From the NCBI GenBank assembly GCA_022340465.1, contig JAJDNW010000131.1, positions 1 to 40,188 on the forward strand: a DNA stretch of 40,188 bases. The letters run 5' to 3'. Source of the DNA: Deltaproteobacteria bacterium (GTDB taxonomy: Bacteria; Desulfobacterota; Desulfobacteria; Desulfobacterales; B30-G6). How positions within the stretch are numbered: the first letter of the stretch is position 1; every line of letters begins with the position of its first letter. Positions 4,228 through 27,050 of the stretch are shown here, in pieces. The translations under genes were made by a program, and so were the position numbers. The notes beneath the pieces are model-generated. The model was given only the letters and a program-made list of their open reading frames with translations. It was not told where the DNA came from and made no database searches.

Positions 4228-5157
4228 ATGCCCTGGTACATTTATCTTCCGATTGCCCAGCACAGTGTCGCCCTGCCGATCGTGCTAGGGCTTGGTTTTA
4301 TTGTCGGACTGCTGTCCGGACTTTTCGGTGTCGGCGGTGGTTTTCTGATGACACCTCTACTCATTATGATCGGAATTCCGCCGACGGTTGCCGCGGCATC
4401 GGATTCCAACCAAATTGTGGCGGCTTCGGCCTCCGGAACCTATGCCCACTACCGGTTGGGCAACGTGGATTTCAAAATGGGAATCTACCTGTTGATCGGC
4501 GGGGTCATCGGCGGGACCGGCGGCGTTCAGATTATCCGAGTTCTCCGCCAAATGGGCAATGCCGATTTTTTGATAATGATTACCTATGTGGTCATGCTGG
4601 CATTCGTGGGCTTTTATATGTTCATCGAGAGCCTTCAAGGACTGCGGGCCGAAAAAACCGTTCAGAAGGCGGCGCCGGCCAAGTCGGCTTCCATTTATTC
4701 CCGGCTCATTCAGAGTCTGCCCTTCCAAACCCGCTTCGAAAAATCGGGCATCGTTCTGTCGCCGGTGGTGCCGTTGTTCCTGGGAGGGCTGGTCGGTATT
4801 CTGGCAGCAATCATGGGGGTCGGCGGGGGCTTTATCATGGTGCCGGTCATGGTATATCTGCTGCGTATGCCCATGCATGTGGTGGTGGGAACAAGCCTTT
4901 TTCAGGTCCTGTTCACCTGCATTGACGTGACGATCATGCAAGCCTATTCAAACCGCACCGTGGATTTTGTTCTGGCACTGCTGCTGCTGATCGGCTCCAC
5001 CTTCGGGGCCCAGATCGGCGCGCGCCTGAGTACGAAGCTTAAAGAGGATCAGCTCAAGATCTTTCTTGCCTTGCTGGTGCTGGCGGTCATGGTCAAAATG
5101 CTTTTCGGCCTGGTGCTTCCCCCGCACAACCTTTTATCATTCCATGGAGGTCACTGA
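4228..5157 (+). CDS. TauE/SafE family sulfite/organosulfonate exporter-like permease
   Basis: A 309-residue polytopic inner-membrane protein with two homologous halves, each containing the family signature (GLLSGLFGVGGGFLMTPLL near residue 35, GILAAIMGVGGGFIMVPVM in the second half). Members export sulfite, sulfoacetate or related anions. ATG 4228 (MPWYIYLPIAQ) is preceded by CTGGAG at 5-6 bases and is preferred over an upstream GTG at 4168. The next gene starts 4 bases after its stop, so the genes are co-transcribed. In sulfur-metabolising bacteria TauE next to TIGR02186 is a recurrent pair; the actual substrate cannot be read from the sequence. Confidence 0.88.
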   Translation: MPWYIYLPIAQHSVALPIVLGLGFIVGLLSGLFGVGGGFLMTPLLIMIGIPPTVAAASDSNQIVAASASGTYAHYRLGNVDFKMGIYLLIGGVIGGTGGVQIIRVLRQMGNADFLIMITYVVMLAFVGFYMFIESLQGLRAEKTVQKAAPAKSASIYSRLIQSLPFQTRFEKSGIVLSPVVPLFLGGLVGILAAIMGVGGGFIMVPVMVYLLRMPMHVVVGTSLFQVLFTCIDVTIMQAYSNRTVDFVLALLLLIGSTFGAQIGARLSTKLKEDQLKIFLALLVLAVMVKMLFGLVLPPHNLLSFHGGH

Positions 5158-5161
5158 TATC

Positions 5162-5929
5162 ATGCGACGATTAATCCATTTAACACTGCTGTTGGTTTGT
5201 GTTAGTTTGGGACTTGCGGCTGCCCCGGCGGCATGGGCGGTACAATCGGATGGGGTGTTCATCCACCCCGAAGTCATGGATATCGGCACTTTTTATTCGG
5301 GGGAAGTCGTTACCGTTTCCGGTGAAGTCCCCAACGGTCAGGATGTGGTGATCGAAATCATCGGGCCGGCCGCGAACGACCAATTCAATATCAAGGGGAA
5401 AGTGGGACCGTTTTGGATGACCCAGGGCAAGGCCGAATTGGACGGTGCGCCGGCCATGTATGCCCTTCTACTGCCCGGCGGCCCACAGTGGTTGCAGAAA
5501 GCCTCGGCACATGGATTGGGCCTGGAGAACTTGAAAAACAGCGTCAAGATACAATCCACATCCATACCTGCGGACGATCTTCTCGAAATGTTTGTAAAAT
5601 TAAAAAAAGATCAGGGCCTCTATGTCGAAAAAGGGAATGCCGTCACCTATGAAGCTGCCGATGGCGGAGGCAGACGGTTTTCGGCGGCCTACCGGTTTCC
5701 GCGGTCCACTTCCGCAGGCAGGTATTCGATCAACGCGACCACGTTTGCCGACGGTGTCAAAACGAGGGAGCGTACGACCCTTTTAACCGTAAAGGAAGTC
5801 GGATTCATCCGCCTGGTAGACAACCTGGCCACGAATCGACGCCTGGCTTATGGAGTCATGGCAGTGGCTATTGCGTTGTTCACCGGCGCTGTAATGGGCC
5901 TCCTTTTTAAAGGCGGCGGGAGCCATTGA
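5162..5929 (+). CDS. TIGR02186-type secreted, C-terminally anchored protein
   Basis: A 255-residue protein with a signal peptide (MRRLIHLTLLLVCVSLGLAA, cleavage after a 'AAWA' site near residue 24), an extracytoplasmic beta-rich domain beginning 'IHPEVMDIGTFYSGEVVTVS', and one C-terminal membrane segment (about residues 228-248). I take it as the TIGR02186 family, predicted membrane-anchored periplasmic proteins that sit beside TauE permeases. A role as a periplasmic partner of the exporter is an inference from neighbourhood. ATG 5162 has GGAGGT about 10 bases upstream; ATG 5144 is an alternative. Its TGA overlaps the ATG of the next gene (TGATG), indicating translational coupling. Confidence 0.75.
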   Translation: MRRLIHLTLLLVCVSLGLAAAPAAWAVQSDGVFIHPEVMDIGTFYSGEVVTVSGEVPNGQDVVIEIIGPAANDQFNIKGKVGPFWMTQGKAELDGAPAMYALLLPGGPQWLQKASAHGLGLENLKNSVKIQSTSIPADDLLEMFVKLKKDQGLYVEKGNAVTYEAADGGGRRFSAAYRFPRSTSAGRYSINATTFADGVKTRERTTLLTVKEVGFIRLVDNLATNRRLAYGVMAVAIALFTGAVMGLLFKGGGSH

Positions 5930-9728: not shown

Positions 9729-9830
9729 TTACCGCATTCGGCCAGGATTTTGAGGCACCGGCCAGCCGCCGGCAATCGTCGACGCCGGCGTCGCCTGGAT
9801 GTCACCGCACCCCCTCATGAATCCTGTCGG

Positions 9831-11177
9831 TCAGATCAGGTTGTACTTCTTTATTTTACGCCAAAGGGTCGATCGCGTGATGCCCAGAATGGCGGCGGCC
9901 TTATCCCGGTGGCCGTCGACTTTACGCAATACGTTGGCAATATGCACGCGTTCCAACTCCTCCAGACTTTGGAGCGTGTCGGCGGCCGATGCCGCCTGCG
10001 TGTTTAGAAATTGCGGCAAATCGTCGACCTGGATCTCCTTTCCCTCCGCCAAAGCCACCGCGCGTGCGACGATATTCTCGAGTTCACGGACATTGCCGGG
10101 GAATTCATATTGTGTCAGAAGCTCACGGGCCTGATCCGAAAAGCCGTGTACATCTTTGTCGTACGCCTCGTTGAACATATGGAGGAAATGATCGGCCAGC
10201 AGCCACAGATCACCCGTGCGATCCGCCAGCCGGGGCACAAAAATGGTCATGACATTCAGCCGGAAGAACAGGTCCTCGCGAAACAGCCCTTTGACCACCT
10301 GTGCTTTTAGATCACGGTTGGAGGCGGCCAGGATACGGATGTCCAGATTGACCGGTCGGCTGCTTCCCAAGCGGTAGATCTGGCCTTCCTGGAGTACTCG
10401 CAAGAGTTTGACCTGCATATCCGCCGGCATGTCGGCGATCTCGTCTAACAGAACGGTGCCGCCATCGGCCGACTGAAGCAATCCCATGCGGGTGGTGAAG
10501 GCGCCGGTAAAGGCACCTTTTTCATGGCCGAACAACTCGTTGGCTATCAGTTCCTGGGAAAAGCCGCCGCAGTTGAAGGAGGTGATCGGCGCTTCGTGGC
10601 GGTGACTGAGAAAGTGAATGGCACGGGCCACCAGCTCCTTGCCGGTACCGCTATCCCCCTGGATGATCACGGGACAATCCAGGGGAGCGATTTTTTCGAT
10701 CATCCGGTAGACCTGTTCCATCTCGGGACTGGTCCCGATAATCCCGGCCTTGCCGGCTTTGTGCGCCATCAGGGCCCGAAGACCGCTGGCTTCTTTGCTG
10801 ATCCTGATCTTTTCGGCCACCCGGGAGATCAAATTGTCGAATTCTGCCAGCCGAATGGGCTTGGTCAAATAATGAAACGCCCCCTCCCGGACCGCCTCGA
10901 TGGCTGAATCGATGGATGCATAGCCGGTGATCACGACCACCTCGGTATCCCGGCAGCAGGCTTTGATGCGCCTTAAAATCTCTATGCCGCCTATGCCCGG
11001 CAATTTCAGATCGGTGATCACCAGGTCGTAGGGCAAAGCGGAAAACGCATTGATAAAGGACTCTCCCTCGAAGAACAGGTCAACCGTGTATCCGGCTTCG
11101 GCCAGGTGTTCCTGCAGCCGCATCCCTGAGATTTTTTCATCTTCGACAACGGCAAGGCGAACCGGCGGTTTATCCAT
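9831..11177 (-). CDS. NtrC-family sigma-54-dependent response regulator
   Basis: A 448-residue activator. Receiver at 1-120 with phospho-acceptor Asp56 (VITDLKLPG). AAA+ central domain with Walker A GDSGTGKE (174-181), the sigma-54 contact loop GAFTGA (221-226), Walker B TVLLDE (241-246) and an arginine-finger region. C-terminal Fis-type helix-turn-helix DKAAAILGITRSTLWRKIKK. ATG 11177 is chosen because GAGGA precedes it and it overlaps the kinase stop by 8 bases (ATGGATAA). It forms a two-component pair with the upstream kinase. It converges on the tauE-usp operon and may control sigma-54 promoters nearby, although I did not find a clear GG-N10-GC site. Confidence 0.93.
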   Translation of the reverse strand: MDKPPVRLAVVEDEKISGMRLQEHLAEAGYTVDLFFEGESFINAFSALPYDLVITDLKLPGIGGIEILRRIKACCRDTEVVVITGYASIDSAIEAVREGAFHYLTKPIRLAEFDNLISRVAEKIRISKEASGLRALMAHKAGKAGIIGTSPEMEQVYRMIEKIAPLDCPVIIQGDSGTGKELVARAIHFLSHRHEAPITSFNCGGFSQELIANELFGHEKGAFTGAFTTRMGLLQSADGGTVLLDEIADMPADMQVKLLRVLQEGQIYRLGSSRPVNLDIRILAASNRDLKAQVVKGLFREDLFFRLNVMTIFVPRLADRTGDLWLLADHFLHMFNEAYDKDVHGFSDQARELLTQYEFPGNVRELENIVARAVALAEGKEIQVDDLPQFLNTQAASAADTLQSLEELERVHIANVLRKVDGHRDKAAAILGITRSTLWRKIKKYNLI

Positions 11178-16377: not shown

Positions 16378-17874
16378 ATGAAAACATTTGCTTACCGCTT
16401 TGCGCTTCTGATGCTTGCCGCCACCCTGTCGGCGGCTCTGTTCCCACTGCCCCTTTGCGCAAAATCCGTCCGCAAGCCCTTGTGGGCCGGCCGCTTCTAC
16501 GAATCCGATCCTTCCGGTCTTGTGCACCACATCGATGCCCTGACAAAAAAGGCCGCGCAAACCCGCATCACTCCCCCCGAAGGCAAATTTCTCAGGGCAA
16601 TTGTGATGCCGCATGCCGGCTACACATACTCGGGTTGGACCGCAGCCCACGCCGCTCAGGCGATAGCGAAAAGCCGGTATGCCAAGGTCGTCCTCATCGG
16701 GCCGGATCACCGCATCGGCCTGAGGACCGCCGCCATAAGTGACGCCGCCGCCTATGAAACCCCTCTGGGCAGAATCGATCTTCACCACGACATCACCCGG
16801 CTGAGGCGACAAAAGGATCTGTTCGAAACCCTGCCGTTGAACCGGGACAGAGAGCATTGCCTGGAAGTCATCCTGCCCTTTCTACAGCGATACCTCGGCA
16901 CGTTTCAGCTCGTGCCCGTCGTGGTTGGATCCGGCGATGTCGAAAAGCTGTCCCATGCCCTGGATGCGATCGTGGACGACGACACCTTGCTGGTGGTCAG
17001 CTCCGATCTCTCGCACTACCTTCCCTATGCCGAAGCTGTTGAAAGGGATCACGAAACCATTGAAGAGATCATCAACCTAACACCGGACAAACTGATGCGG
17101 GATGACAACCGGGCCTGCGGCAAAACGCCGCTTTTGATTGCCATCCAGATGGCCCGGCGTCATCGATGGCAGCCCGTGCTGCTCCATTATTCAAACAGCG
17201 GAGACACCGCCGGTGACCGGTCGCAGGTAGTCGGGTATGCGGCCATCGGCTTTTTCGGCGACCGGCCCGCAAATGCCGGAGAAAATCAGGGCAAACCGTT
17301 CGGCGACACACAGGGGCAAATTCTGATCAGGCTGGCCCGCAGAACCATTATGGAAAAACTGGGCATGGACACATCGGGACCTGCCTTTACAGATCTCGAT
17401 GCAGACCTCCGGGATGACCGCTTCAAACGGCAGCGCGGCACTTTTGTCACCCTGACGATTGACGGCCGCCTGAGGGGCTGCATCGGTAATCTGACAGCCA
17501 CGGGGGATGTTCTGAACGGTGTGCGGCGAAATGCCCTCAACGCGGCTTTTCGCGACCCCCGCTTCCCCCCCTTGACAATAGCGGAAATGAACACGACCAG
17601 GATCGAAGTCAGCATACTGACAGACCCCCAACCGCTCGACTTCAAGAACGGTCAGGATCTTGTCGAAAAGCTTCGTTGCCATGTGGACGGTGTCATTGTT
17701 CGAAAGGGTCTCGCCAGGGCAACCTTTCTACCCCAGGTATGGGAGCAGTTGCCCGCACCTGAGGATTTCCTTTCCCACCTGTGCCGGAAGGCCGGTCTGC
17801 CGCCCGATGCCTGGAAAAAGAAGGGGGTAGATATTCTAACCTATCAGGTTCAGTATTTTGAGGAAAATCGATGA
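16378..17874 (+). CDS. Secreted MEMO-AMMECR1 fusion (AmmeMemoRadiSam proteins B and A)
   Basis: A 498-residue fusion. Residues 1-28 form a signal peptide (MKTFAYRFALLMLAATLSAA ... LCAKS). About 32-300 is the MEMO domain, related to class III extradiol dioxygenases, with putative metal ligands in MPHAGYTYSG, GPDHRIGL and SSDLSHY. About 312-495 is an AMMECR1 domain with its diagnostic LRGCIGNL. The two are separate genes in many bacteria and fused in others. Together with a radical SAM enzyme they define the AmmeMemoRadiSam system, whose substrate is unknown. The downstream genes are a SpeE-like membrane protein and the radical SAM enzyme. The signal peptide places the fusion in the envelope. 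Confidence 0.9.
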   Translation: MKTFAYRFALLMLAATLSAALFPLPLCAKSVRKPLWAGRFYESDPSGLVHHIDALTKKAAQTRITPPEGKFLRAIVMPHAGYTYSGWTAAHAAQAIAKSRYAKVVLIGPDHRIGLRTAAISDAAAYETPLGRIDLHHDITRLRRQKDLFETLPLNRDREHCLEVILPFLQRYLGTFQLVPVVVGSGDVEKLSHALDAIVDDDTLLVVSSDLSHYLPYAEAVERDHETIEEIINLTPDKLMRDDNRACGKTPLLIAIQMARRHRWQPVLLHYSNSGDTAGDRSQVVGYAAIGFFGDRPANAGENQGKPFGDTQGQILIRLARRTIMEKLGMDTSGPAFTDLDADLRDDRFKRQRGTFVTLTIDGRLRGCIGNLTATGDVLNGVRRNALNAAFRDPRFPPLTIAEMNTTRIEVSILTDPQPLDFKNGQDLVEKLRCHVDGVIVRKGLARATFLPQVWEQLPAPEDFLSHLCRKAGLPPDAWKKKGVDILTYQVQYFEENR

Positions 17875-17964
17875 AAATTACCGACCCCTGACATTGGAAT
17901 TGTTCAGGATTTAGATATTCGATATTGGAATTTCCGGTTTACCGGGTTGGAGAGGAGGTTGTCG

Positions 17965-20076
17965 ATGCGTCATCGGAGGGAACGCGCCGTCATCCGGGTG
18001 GTCGTCGCAACGGGCATCTCCTCCGTGGTTACCCAGCTGATTACCATCCGTGAGTTTATAACTCAATTCTCGGGTAATGAAATCGTCATCGCACTGATTC
18101 TCTTCAACTGGTTGATTCTGGGCGGTGCCGGCACCCTTGCAGCGAGAGCCTTTGCCCGTCGATCGAGGCCCACACCCGGAAAACTGGCCGGTTTTTCGCT
18201 TTTGCTATGCATCCTGGCCCTGCTGCAGATTATGGCTATCCGCCAATTGCGCAACCTCATTTTCACCCAGGGCAGTTCGGTGGGGTTTTATCCCGTTCTG
18301 CTGTTCTGCTTACTGACATTGGCGCCCTACTGTCTGCTGCTCGGTTTCGTTCTGCCGTACAGTCTTTTTGTGCTGCGATCCGAACGGAACGATTATCCTG
18401 CGTCACGCATCTATATCGGCGACAACATCGGTGACATCGCCGGAGGCGCCCTGTTTTCGTTTGTGCTGATTTTTCTGGTAAGTCCCATGACGGCCCTGCT
18501 CATCGGTCACGTGCCCCTTATTCTGGCAAGTTATATGCTTTTCCCTTCCCCCGGCCGGAACAGACCGGTGGTATGGTCGGCCCTCATCCTGGCCCTCGCC
18601 ACCCTGGGCAGCGGAATCGCTCTTGAAAACGTTTCGCTGACGCCGGCAAAGGGGAGGCTGGCCCTGTACCGGGAAACCCGCTACGGCCGTATCACGGTCC
18701 ACCGTGACAGGGAGCAATTCACCCTGTTTGAAAACGGCATCCCCATGTTCAGCAGCCACGACCGGAGCACGGCCGAAGAAACCGTTCACTACCCGCTTTC
18801 CCAGTTGGATACCGTGCGGAAGGTACTGCTGATATCGGCCCGGGGCGGCGTTATGGATGAGATTAAAAAATATCCGATCCAGTCGGTGGATTACGTGGAG
18901 CTCGATCCCGAAGTCGCCGCGGTTCAATTCCGCTTTGGCATCATCCACAAAGTGAATGGGTTGCACGTCATCCATCAGGATGGCCGGGTCTTCCTGTCCC
19001 AAACCCCCAAGAAATACGACGCCATCATTGTCAACCTGCCCGAACCCGACACGTTTCAACTGAATCGTTTTTACACGAACACCTTTTTCAAAATGGCCCG
19101 GCGCCACCTCGCCCCACAGGGCGTTCTCAGCTTTTCCATGCAGGGCTTCGACAACTATCTTGCGGAATCCCAGCGCCGGAAACTGTCCGCCCTCTACCAT
19201 ACCGCCCATGTCCATTTTGAACATGTCACCCTTTTCCCCGGGCAGAAGGTCTATTTCGTATGCAGCCGTCAACCGCCCCATATGGATATTCCGGCAGTGT
19301 TAGAGCGAAAGGGCATCCCGACCACGTACATCAGCGGATATTTTTACGGCAATGTGACACCTGAAAGGATCGACGCCCTGAACCAGAGCATGGACCCCTC
19401 TGTCCCCCGCAACATCGATCAGAAGCCCTATCTCATGCGGCTGATGTTTTCCCAGTGGTTTGCAAAATTCCAGACCTCGCCAACCGTTTTTTTTCTCGTA
19501 ATAGGCGTGCTTGCCGCCGCCTATGTGGCCCGGAGTACCCGGGAAGAATTCATTCTATTCTCGACCGGGGGCATGGTCATGGGCAGCGAAATATTGGTTA
19601 TCTTTGCATTCCAGATCTATTTTGGCTATATTTACTCTCAGATCGGTATCATCGTCACCGTTTTTCTGACAGGGCTCTTGCCCGGTGCCTGGTTCGGCAA
19701 CCGGCTCTGTGAGCGGGGCAAACCGGCTTTGATCGTGAGCGATCTGTTTCTGATCGTTTTATTGGCGCTTTTCATCCTGGTGATCTACACGTTTGCCGAC
19801 CGCCTGCCCGAAGCTTTCTACCTGGCCTTCGGTTTCGCCGTATCGCTGGCTTGCGGGTTTCAGTTCCCGGTAGCGCTGCATCTTAAGGGCGGCGGGAACA
19901 CCGCCATCGCCCGAGCCTTTTCCGCCGATCTGATCGGCGCCGCCTGCGGTACGCTGATGACGAGCGTTATCCTGATACCTTATTCGGGTATTTTCTGGAC
20001 GGCCGGGGGATTGATTGCGATAAAGGTGATCAGTCTGGCTTTAATACCCTGGATAAAGGTAAAGGGGGCTGCGTAA
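17965..20076 (+). CDS. Polytopic membrane protein with spermidine-synthase-like domain
   Basis: A 703-residue protein. About seven membrane segments (10-235) lead into a cytoplasmic methyltransferase-fold domain (about 240-490) and about six C-terminal segments (500-700). The domain aligns with spermidine synthases: AEETVHYPLSQLDTVRKVLL, VDYVELDPEVAAVQF, DGRVFLSQTPKKYDAIIVNL. The glycine-rich loop is ISARGGVMDE rather than GGGDGG, and the catalytic-region Asp is replaced (VNLPEPDT for VDxxDP), so aminopropyl transfer is doubtful. ATG 17965 has AGGAGG at 6 bases and is preferred over TTG 17947. The radical SAM gene begins 4 bases after its stop, so they act together. Confidence 0.85.
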   Translation: MRHRRERAVIRVVVATGISSVVTQLITIREFITQFSGNEIVIALILFNWLILGGAGTLAARAFARRSRPTPGKLAGFSLLLCILALLQIMAIRQLRNLIFTQGSSVGFYPVLLFCLLTLAPYCLLLGFVLPYSLFVLRSERNDYPASRIYIGDNIGDIAGGALFSFVLIFLVSPMTALLIGHVPLILASYMLFPSPGRNRPVVWSALILALATLGSGIALENVSLTPAKGRLALYRETRYGRITVHRDREQFTLFENGIPMFSSHDRSTAEETVHYPLSQLDTVRKVLLISARGGVMDEIKKYPIQSVDYVELDPEVAAVQFRFGIIHKVNGLHVIHQDGRVFLSQTPKKYDAIIVNLPEPDTFQLNRFYTNTFFKMARRHLAPQGVLSFSMQGFDNYLAESQRRKLSALYHTAHVHFEHVTLFPGQKVYFVCSRQPPHMDIPAVLERKGIPTTYISGYFYGNVTPERIDALNQSMDPSVPRNIDQKPYLMRLMFSQWFAKFQTSPTVFFLVIGVLAAAYVARSTREEFILFSTGGMVMGSEILVIFAFQIYFGYIYSQIGIIVTVFLTGLLPGAWFGNRLCERGKPALIVSDLFLIVLLALFILVIYTFADRLPEAFYLAFGFAVSLACGFQFPVALHLKGGGNTAIARAFSADLIGAACGTLMTSVILIPYSGIFWTAGGLIAIKVISLALIPWIKVKGAA

Positions 20077-20080
20077 CACA

Positions 20081-21274
20081 GTGAAAAAAATTTCCAGAAG
20101 GCAATTCTTCAACCGCTGTTCGACCTGTCTTGCAACGGTCGTTGCATCCCCGTGGCTGAACCCGTTCGGCCTCGACGCCTGCCGGGCGGCAACCCGCGAC
20201 GACATCCGCGGCAAGGTGTTCAGGGGGGATGCGCCGGAAAAGCTCTGGAAATGGTCCCGTGAAGCTTTTTTGTATAAAAAAACCGGCAACGGCAAGGTCA
20301 TCTGCGGCATCTGCCCCAACCGGTGCATGCTGTCACCGGGCGACCGCAGCGTCTGCCGCTCCAAGGTCAACATAAACGGCAAGCTCTACAGCCTGACATA
20401 CGGCAATCCCTGCGCCGTCAACACCGACCCCATTGAAAAAAAGCCGCTTTTGCATTTCAAACCGCGAACGAAAGCTTTTTCACTGGCGACAACCGGATGC
20501 AATTTTCGCTGTCTGAACTGCCAGAACTGGGAAATTTCCCAGGCCAAACCCCATGAAGTCAGCCCGGCCTACGAACTCTTCCCGTCCGATGTCATCGGTG
20601 CCGCGCAGAGCGCACAGGCGCAATCGATCGCCTACACTTATTCCGAGCCGACAACTTTTTTTGAATACATGATCGACACCGCCCGCCTTGCCAGAAAAGA
20701 GGGCCTCTGCAATCTTTGGGTGTCCAATGCCTACATCAATGAAAAGCCCCTGCTTGCACTCTGCGATGTTCTGGATGCGGCCACGCTGAATATCAAAGCC
20801 TTCGACGACGGCATCTACCGCAAACTGAACGGCGGGCGCCTGGCGCCTGTTTTGAAAACCTTTCAAGTCCTGCACGCCAAAAACATCCATTTCGAAATGA
20901 TCAATCTCATTGTGCCGGGCTACACGGATGACGAAAACATGGTGGCGGCGATGTGCGACTGGATTCTCGATCACATCGGACCCGACCACCCCCTGCACTT
21001 TCTGCGCTTCTTCCCGCGCTACAAGCTGGACCGGCTGCCGCCCACGGCGGTGTCCACCCTGACGCGTTTTCGGAAACTGGCCATGGAAAAGGGAATTCAT
21101 TATGTCTATGTCGGCAACGTGCCCGGTCACGAGGGCAACAACACCTATTGTCACCATTGTGGAAAACTGCTGATCGAACGGCGGGGCTACGTGATTCCCA
21201 CCTACAACCTTTCGGAAAACCGCTGCCGGTTCTGCAACACGATCATCCCCGGTGTGTGGACGGCAGCGTCATAG
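20081..21274 (+). CDS. AmmeMemoRadiSam system radical SAM enzyme with Tat-type signal
   Basis: A 397-residue member of the PflA-like radical SAM group. The Fe-S motif is CNFRCLNC (about 148-155) in LATTGCNFRCLNCQNWEISQ. An N-terminal cysteine cluster CGICPNRC precedes it and the C-terminus has zinc-ribbon-like CHHCGKLL and CRFCNT pairs, as in other AmmeMemoRadiSam enzymes. The first 35 residues (MKKISRRQFFNRCSTCLATV) form a twin-arginine signal with SRRQFF. The start is GTG 20081. It is the last gene of the MEMO/SpeE-like set. Its TAG stop is also the first three bases of a dispersed repeat (21272-21345). Confidence 0.9.
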   Translation: MKKISRRQFFNRCSTCLATVVASPWLNPFGLDACRAATRDDIRGKVFRGDAPEKLWKWSREAFLYKKTGNGKVICGICPNRCMLSPGDRSVCRSKVNINGKLYSLTYGNPCAVNTDPIEKKPLLHFKPRTKAFSLATTGCNFRCLNCQNWEISQAKPHEVSPAYELFPSDVIGAAQSAQAQSIAYTYSEPTTFFEYMIDTARLARKEGLCNLWVSNAYINEKPLLALCDVLDAATLNIKAFDDGIYRKLNGGRLAPVLKTFQVLHAKNIHFEMINLIVPGYTDDENMVAAMCDWILDHIGPDHPLHFLRFFPRYKLDRLPPTAVSTLTRFRKLAMEKGIHYVYVGNVPGHEGNNTYCHHCGKLLIERRGYVIPTYNLSENRCRFCNTIIPGVWTAAS

Positions 21275-25681: not shown

Positions 25682-26827
25682 TCAGTTAAATATGTCGGCG
25701 TATTCTCCATATCCCTCTTTTTCCAGGTCCGCTTTGGGGATAAATCTCAAGGCCGCCGAATTGATGCAGTAGCGCAGGCCTGTGGGCTTTGGCCCATCAT
25801 CGAAAACATGCCCCAGGTGGCTGTCGGCATGCCGGCTTCGCACCTCGGTGCGCATCATGAAGAAGCTCATATCCTTTTTTTCGACAATATTGTCGGGCTC
25901 AAGGGGGCGGGTGAAACTCGGCCACCCGGTTCCGGAGGGATATTTGTCCCTGGAACTGAAAAGGGGCTCACCGGAAACGACGTCCACGAAAATGCCTTCG
26001 GCCTTTAAATTCCAGAATTCGTTGTCGAAAGGCGGTTCCGTGCCGTCTTCCTGGGTCACCTTGTACTGCATGGGGGTCAGCGTATCCTTCAATACGCTTT
26101 TGTCGGGGACCGCATAGGTTTTCATCATTTTCCCATTTTTTTCACCCGACGTCTTGTCCATCATCTTTCCCGCATCCATGCGCGGCTTGTATTTAACTTC
26201 CCGCCAGGCCATTTTTAGAAACTTGTCACGGCCTGAACCGGACCGATACCATCGATACCGGATCGGGTTTCTCTTGTAATAGTCCTGGTGATATGCTTCC
26301 GCCTCATAAAATGCACCCAATGGCAGAATTTCCGTGACAATGGGTTTTTCAAACTGCCCCGAAGCATCCAGTTCCTTCTTTGTCTTTTCGGCCAGACGGC
26401 GTTCTTCCCCGTTTTGGTAAAAAATGGCGCTGCGGTACTGGGATCCTCTGTCGACAAACTGACCGCCGGGATCCGTGGGGTCCACGTGCCGCCAGAACAC
26501 ATCCAAAAGGCCTTCATAGGTGATTTTGTCCGGGTCGTAGAAGACCTTCACCGCTTCGACGTGCCCGGTTCCGCCCCTTGACACCTCTTCATAGGATGGA
26601 TGGGCCACCGTGCCGCCGGTAAAACCCGAAACCGCCTCGATCACCCCCTCCACCTTTTCAAAATCCGACTCCGTGCACCAGAAACACCCGCCGGCAAAAA
26701 CGGCTGTCCGGGTCCCGGCCGGCATGTCCATCGCCCCTTCTCCCGTGGATTCATCCATGCTGCGGGCCGGATACCCAGCAAACAGAACGACCATCACCAC
26801 GGCCATGGCAAACAGTATATTCTTCAT
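25682..26827 (-). CDS. msrAB: Exported MsrA-MsrB fusion, peptide methionine sulfoxide reductase
   Basis: A 381-residue bifunctional enzyme that reduces both S- and R-methionine sulfoxide in proteins. Signal peptide at 1-23 ([20 protein letters not shown]). MsrA domain at about 40-205 with catalytic Cys48 in GGCFWCTES. MsrB domain at about 245-370 with [32 protein letters not shown] and catalytic Cys354 in [12 protein letters not shown]; the zinc-binding CxxC pairs of some MsrB are absent. No thioredoxin-like domain is attached. ATG 26827 has AAGGAGG at 6-7 bases; the longer frame to 27046 is only an open extension. It follows the OmpR/BaeS-like pair on the same strand, suggesting control by it. 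Confidence 0.92.
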
Positions 26828-26958
26828 AGGACACCTCCTTTGCTGCATATATTGAGCGTTTTTTTCTTGCCCGTTCAAATGAAATATAAGACACGCTTTT
26901 AAAGGGCGCTTAAAGGAAGTGTAAAGATTCGGTAAAGATATGGGGGTAACGGATGGGT

Positions 26959-27050
26959 CCGCCTTAAAATTACATCGGTTGTCATAATATATGTTCCGAT
27001 TGAAACTCGAAATAGAGGCCGTCCGGACCGTTTTTCTGGTAACCACTCTA
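26959..27050 (-). repeat. Dispersed short repeat, copy 3 (divergent middle)
   Basis: On the minus strand it starts TAGAGTGGTTACCAGAAAAA then CGGTCCGGA, CGGCCTCTATT, and ends AATTTTAAGGCGGA. The ends match copy 1 and the inner CGGCCTCTATT matches the inverted partial copy at 25604-25642. The opening TAG is the stop codon of the histidine kinase gene. Confidence 0.65.

Follow-up and report, generated by a model that had tools for sequence, protein, structure and literature searches.

The AmmeMemoRadiSam system comprises three protein families, AMMECR1 (TIGR04335), MEMO (TIGR04336) and a radical SAM enzyme (TIGR04337). In the literature that we searched, we found no reaction for this system, and only passing mentions of either the system or periplasmic radical SAM enzymes. 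To our knowledge, radical SAM enzymes are considered to work in the cytoplasm, since this is where SAM and low-potential electrons are available. Residues H49, H81 and C244 of human MEMO1 are iron/copper ligands (PMC11081632). Two other described types of protein bear on the locus reported here: aminopropyltransferases, in which the Asp or Glu of the GGG(D/E)G motif binds decarboxylated SAM (PMC10349129, PMC11107197), and the fungal NHMT, an N-terminal histidine methyltransferase with seven transmembrane (TM) segments (PMC10349129).

The locus and its recurrence across genomes

All three AmmeMemoRadiSam families are adjacent within 4.9 kb of the window, that is, the whole stretch of 40,188 nucleotides that we analysed, and all exceed their curated cut-offs (Table 1). 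The source genome is 4.39 Mb in 162 contigs and is 95% complete; the nearest relatives that have names are Desulfobacterales MAGs. MEMO (TIGR04336, 240.4 bits, cut-off 26) and AMMECR1 (TIGR04335, 194 bits, cut-off 99) are domains of one protein with a Sec-type N-terminal signal, MKTFAYRFALLMLAATLSAALFPLPLCAKS; H79, H111 and C247 are the equivalents of the MEMO metal ligands, and the AMMECR1 motif is LRGCIG. The radical SAM enzyme (TIGR04337, 330 bits, cut-off 220) begins with VKKISRRQFF, a Tat motif that is followed by a hydrophobic stretch, and the genome has one copy of TatC (PF00902, 247.7 bits). Its cysteines form a CxxxCxxC motif at C140, C144 and C147, an N-terminal four-cysteine motif and a C-terminal CxxC...CxxC. 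The gene between them encodes a SpeE-like membrane protein (Pfam Spermine_synth, 49.4 bits, cut-off 22.9); its reading frame is open from a TTG at 17947, and the most likely start is the ATG at 17965, which is preceded by GGAGG. Four bases separate its stop (20076) from the GTG of the radical SAM gene (20081). A preliminary description of this DNA had placed the set at 16378-21274 and had reported the fusion behind a signal peptide, the twin-arginine signal and the 4-base spacing, all of which we could confirm. Elsewhere in the window (25682-27046, minus strand) is a fused MsrA-MsrB methionine sulfoxide reductase, composed of PMSR and SelR domains; a signal-like segment precedes its MsrA part, and the protein may serve extracytoplasmic repair.

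Table 1. Positions of the module's genes and features in the window, and of radical SAM genes of a second family at other loci
Feature	Position	Strand	Evidence
MEMO + AMMECR1 fusion, 498 aa	16378..17874	+	TIGR04336, TIGR04335, conservation, solved MEMO1 and archaeal AMMECR1 relatives
Membrane protein of MFS fold carrying a spermidine-synthase-like, SAM-binding insertion; 703 aa, counted from the ATG	17965..20076	+	
SpeE-like soluble domain, predicted to lie in the periplasm; ~residues 229-505, counted from the ATG	18649..19479	+	
AmmeMemoRadiSam radical SAM enzyme, 397 aa, Tat signal	20081..21274	+	
Tat motif SRRQF of the radical SAM enzyme	20093..20107	+	TatC in same genome
Second-family radical SAM gene	L110:3922-4987		
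Second-family radical SAM gene	L134:6586-7684		
Second-family radical SAM gene	L135:2596-3706		
Second-family radical SAM gene	L137:9805-10900		
Second-family radical SAM gene	L263:11198-12299		

We surveyed the window's phylum (192 genomes of the order, 80 GTDB contigs and 247 genomes of the phylum) and annotated ~250 loci by means of profiles that we made from the proteins of the window; since most of these loci were found through SpeE or the radical SAM enzyme, the frequencies do not come from a blind sample. Nearly all of the 192 order genomes have MEMO and radical SAM genes, and 119 of them have a P0002-like match.

The preliminary description had put forward the SpeE-like gene as a fourth part of the system. 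The gene is a consistent neighbour: the full trio of MEMO, AMMECR1 and radical SAM enzyme is present at 67 of the 72 distinct close SpeE-like loci (≥750 bits, at least 3 kb of flank on both sides, partners sought within 6 kb). The five remaining loci comprise two with AMMECR1 and the radical SAM enzyme and three that lack the latter; at the well-flanked L046, L083 and L179, MEMO-AMMECR1 and SpeE are present and the radical SAM gene is not adjacent. The trio recurs in ~110 distinct loci, in which the partners are kept while the gene order varies: MEMO-AMMECR1/SpeE/radical SAM (M-S-R, the window type), SpeE/radical SAM/MEMO-AMMECR1 (S-R-M; L090-L094), or radical SAM/MEMO-AMMECR1/SpeE (R-M-S; L100-L106, L264-L266, L282 and L295). 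Retention of the partners despite reshuffling argues for a functional unit. We found no further constant neighbour in the module; the next commonest family, present at 13 of ~80 loci, looks like regional context.

SpeE-like proteins are also found in other settings. At L109, L133, L268 and L294, a TIGR04337-like radical SAM enzyme with a Tat signal accompanies the SpeE-like protein with no MEMO in the stretch; at L109 the pair is directly followed by a lipoprotein-like protein with a CxxCH (LSCRRCHARPE; 9818-11014). In 9-10 other loci (L110-L112, L134-L137, L246/L263, L280 and L289), which have neither MEMO nor AMMECR1, a more distant SpeE-like protein adjoins a different family of Tat-signalled radical SAM enzymes, which belongs to the PFL-activase superfamily and is claimed by no NCBIfam equivalog. 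L136 holds both kinds of enzyme, and its copy of the second kind (4702-5761) has a lipobox-like Cys. Because the second family is also found beside SpeE-like proteins, the constant pairing is that of the MFS-SpeE protein with an exported radical SAM enzyme. A further ~25 distant SpeE-like loci have no radical SAM gene nearby, and ordinary SpeE proteins with seven TM segments (L147-L152) have other neighbours and no radical SAM gene; the genes of these ordinary proteins belong to a conserved cluster, in which they follow those of a ~228-aa lipoprotein-like protein and a ~285-aa membrane protein. At L141-L144, SpeE-domain membrane proteins of ~820-1120 aa are encoded beside an amino-acid-permease-like gene.

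Predicted export as a property of the radical SAM lineage

Among the distinct TIGR04337-like radical SAM enzymes, 145 have both a Tat signal and a SpeE-like gene within 6 kb, 44 have neither, and eight are mixed (two with Tat only, six with SpeE only). The mixed cases include L146, which stops at a contig edge where a SpeE fragment remains, L187, which has a run of N, L102, which looks frame-shifted, and L283-L286, unsignalled enzymes near SpeE that are placed on the unsignalled side of the tree. In this tree (117 rows), L283-L286 and the unsignalled enzymes sit behind one branch (SH-aLRT 100, length 0.46), and every Tat-signalled enzyme lies outside it. One clade has TRKEFLK, an R-K variant of the Tat motif that keeps xFLK. 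Predicted export is a property of the lineage. The locus had been read earlier as pointing to modification of an extracytoplasmic or membrane-associated substrate; homologues in the lineage do carry export signals, a separate paralogous lineage does not, and the lineage-wide signals support that interpretation.

The genome from which the window comes also has a second AmmeMemoRadiSam set, which is unlinked (MEMO on C56, the radical SAM gene on C10, AMMECR1 on C93) and in which none of the three proteins has a signal. This unsignalled set provides a built-in comparison for the exported trio. The second-set MEMO gene (L002) adjoins genes with HypA- and HypB-like products (hydrogenase maturation).

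The exported proteins retain their catalytic residues. CxxxCxxC is intact in 153 of 153 exported radical SAM homologues, the MEMO ligand equivalents are kept in 120-121 of 121, and RGCIG of AMMECR1 is kept in 139-141 of 142; on these grounds we rejected the idea that the exported enzymes are degenerate or decaying. We take the stops within some radical SAM matches to be read-through past the C-terminus; all three stop codons occur, and nothing points to recoding. The closest solved fold to the radical SAM core is that of pyruvate formate-lyase activating enzyme (Z 22.9, rmsd 2.2 Å over 225 residues); the score with that enzyme's equivalog, 51.6 bits, is far under the cut-off of 231.75.

In nearly all cases the trio MEMO carries a Sec-type signal. 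In ~7 loci, AMMECR1 has a reading frame of its own and no signal (L053, L056, L059, L060, L065, L067 and L078), and in one clade (L212, L218-L232) MEMO is absent and AMMECR1 stands alone, mostly with a signal of its own; thus, not all parts need be periplasmic, or even present. Programmed frameshifting as an explanation for the split AMMECR1 was rejected, because the seven junctions are mostly overlapping or close start and stop codons with no slippery run before the stop; an A8 run at the L060 junction would allow a shift there. We left the split AMMECR1 and MEMO partners as separate proteins. In the lone AMMECR1 genes that have a signal, a Met is kept internally, close ahead of the domain and after a run of codons rich in Lys, Glu and Gly; dual translation starts are possible in these genes.

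The radical SAM enzymes of the R-M-S clade differ in the segment between the Tat signal and the radical SAM domain: 10 of 12 (L100-L106, L266, L282 and L295) have a CxxCH that precedes the usual cysteine motif by ~20-30 residues and is followed by a conserved His ~13-18 residues beyond, and L264 and L265 have lost the CxxCH and the His together. Such joint loss is what one would expect of a c-type haem in the periplasm, which could pass electrons to the enzyme, and a haem acting as an electron inlet is possible. Covalent attachment of haem c takes place outside the cytoplasm, so that the haem, if real, fixes the location of the enzyme. Unsignalled radical SAM enzymes sometimes have a CxxCH within the ordinary cysteine motif, and therefore the sequence suggests a haem rather than proves one.

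The membrane protein, a proposed mechanism and competing readings

Hydropathy gives 14 TM segments (7+7) for the SpeE-like protein, and an AlphaFold model built on an alignment with 47 relatives (pLDDT 93.9, pTM 0.92) has 13 membrane helices, of which the last, at 52 residues, may be two. The protein had been described as having 13 segments; its polytopic nature stands, and the count is better given as 13-14. The membrane part matches SV2A (Z 28.8), OCTN2 (27.2), NarK (26.6) and FLVCR1 (26.3). For the soluble part, the match is to spermidine synthase 1uir (Z 27.0, 265 aligned residues, rmsd 2.9 Å). The whole model has the two pseudo-symmetric halves of an MFS fold. As modelled, the protein is an MFS transporter fold into which a spermidine-synthase-like domain is inserted after TM7; in SV2A, a lumenal domain likewise lies between TM7 and TM8.

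The mean number of Lys and Arg residues per sequence in the N-terminus, alternate loops and the C-terminus is 2.85, 3.08, 2.31, 2.19, 1.13, 3.13, 1.95 and 1.26, and is 0-1.1 in the remaining loops, assigned outside, including the side of the SpeE-like domain. By the positive-inside rule, this pattern places the N-terminus inside, and the SAM-binding domain is predicted to sit in the periplasm. The name SpeE-like, used in the preliminary description, is apt for the fold of this domain; the protein as a whole is better described as one of MFS fold whose SAM-binding domain is predicted to be periplasmic.

Pyruvate formate-lyase activating enzyme, to which the radical SAM core is closest in fold, forms a 5'-deoxyadenosyl radical from SAM, and the radical SAM enzyme therefore needs SAM at its own location. 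A neighbouring MFS permease with a predicted periplasmic SAM domain, common to two Tat-signalled radical SAM families, is a natural candidate for the supplier. We give an even chance to the reading that the trio is a periplasmic radical-SAM modification module that obtains its SAM, outside the cytoplasm, from the MFS-SpeE protein. The radical SAM enzyme would be folded, loaded with its [4Fe-4S] cluster and then exported by Tat, and MEMO-AMMECR1 would be exported by Sec. The permease would move SAM over the membrane, hold it for the radical SAM enzyme, or both; the enzyme, with its PFL-activase-like core, would generate the radical and abstract hydrogen from an envelope substrate, and the MEMO metal site with AMMECR1 would perform a second step on the same substrate. 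The extracytoplasmic location of the module is well supported by the predicted signals and topology; we infer actual export, the supply and movement of SAM by the MFS-SpeE protein, the electron source, the order of steps, the MEMO-AMMECR1 step and an envelope substrate. A more specific form, with the MFS-SpeE protein as a dedicated exporter or loader of SAM for at least two Tat-signalled radical SAM families, one clade of which has its own c-type haem, is tentative, and we consider it possible rather than probable.

The main rival to SAM supply is that the SpeE-like domain is itself an extracytoplasmic, NHMT-like methyltransferase acting on the same envelope substrate, with an MFS scaffold that imports SAM or only serves as an anchor, and with the radical SAM enzyme and MEMO-AMMECR1 catalysing other steps of the pathway. 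The SAM-site residues E318 and D345 (numbered from the TTG) are invariant in 85 of 85 relatives, as are P367, N373 and R374 of a PEPxTxQxNRFYT-type motif; METTL13, a protein methyltransferase, is both a sequence and a fold match; and NHMT, which methylates secreted proteins, combines seven TM segments with a spermidine-synthase-like domain without the GxG(D/E)G acid (PMC10349129). However, NHMT lacks a second membrane half, whereas here the domain is flanked by both halves of a full MFS fold, and the pairing with Tat-signalled radical SAM enzymes at loci without MEMO or AMMECR1 is more simply explained by a shared role in supply. We hold a methyltransferase to be somewhat doubtful, and the two readings do not exclude each other.

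The MFS part might instead carry a substrate or product of the pathway, with the SpeE-like domain only sensing or binding that molecule. MFS proteins move many small molecules, carriers of choline and carnitine are among the best matches in fold, and D153, D157, E542 and D655 are invariant acids within the membrane helices of the trio-type proteins. Such a carrier leaves unexplained both the source of SAM for an exported radical SAM enzyme and the invariant SAM-site residues, and we regard it as unlikely. That the signals are misread, and that the enzymes are cytoplasmic or bound to the membrane on its cytoplasmic side, is less likely again: location is predicted, a few AMMECR1 copies are unsignalled and the lone AMMECR1 has its domain-proximal Met, but a Tat motif with a hydrophobic stretch is present in 147 distinct radical SAM enzymes, nearly all of those linked to SpeE, and in 0 of 44 paralogues; the R-K variant of one clade is conservative, and the topology of the SpeE-like domain agrees with export.

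That the protein is an aminopropyltransferase in the membrane, which produces polyamines or adds aminopropyl groups to the envelope, was rejected as very unlikely in spite of the Spermine_synth domain, the SpeE fold and the relatives that do have Glu at the motif position: the GGG(D/E)G acid (position 299, TTG numbering) is Arg in the window (CGG, 18841-18843) and varies among the 85 relatives (Glu in 26, Val in 16, Gln in 14, Ala in 8), the second acid position, which we take from known spermidine synthases to be the catalytic Asp, is Asn in 45 of 85 and Asp in 11 of 85, and the S-adenosylmethionine decarboxylase SpeD (PF02675), without which no decarboxylated SAM is expected, had no match in the window's genome (95% complete) or in ~20 other trio genomes.

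Comparison with known systems

Pyruvate formate-lyase activating enzyme shares the core fold of the window's radical SAM enzyme, which differs in having extra cysteine-rich N- and C-terminal parts and a Tat signal. The ligands H49, H81 and C244 of human MEMO1 have counterparts in the window MEMO (H79, H111 and C247); unlike the human protein, the window MEMO is predicted to be exported and is fused to AMMECR1. Fungal NHMT, which acts in the secretory pathway, resembles the membrane protein in its seven TM segments ahead of a SpeE-like domain in which the GxG(D/E)G acid is missing, but has no C-terminal TM half and no radical SAM, MEMO or AMMECR1 partners; the likeness is one of design. The fused MFS/spermidine synthase family NF037959 (window protein 43.7, cut-off 40) and SpeE proteins of the PRK03612 type with seven TM segments likewise have TM segments ahead of the SpeE-like domain. 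The window protein differs from both in having a full MFS fold whose halves flank the domain, in the loss of the aminopropyltransferase acids and in its Tat-signalled radical SAM neighbour; the PRK03612-type proteins that we sampled have other neighbours and no radical SAM gene.

The AmmeMemoRadiSam trio is known, whereas an exported lineage with a fixed MFS-SpeE partner is undescribed in the literature that we searched. If our reading is true, an exported radical SAM lineage tied to a SAM-binding domain on the outside would imply that the periplasm of these bacteria receives SAM, with the MFS-SpeE protein as a named candidate carrier. Such a lineage suggests that radical-SAM chemistry can take place outside the cytoplasm, contrary to expectation. 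It also gives a handle on AmmeMemoRadiSam itself, since the substrate of the exported version is to be sought in the envelope. The locus agrees with AmmeMemoRadiSam in having all three families, adjacent and with intact catalytic residues. It departs from it in predicted export, in the fusion of MEMO to AMMECR1, in a Tat-signalled radical SAM enzyme that belongs to its own lineage apart from the unsignalled enzymes, and in a constant fourth partner.
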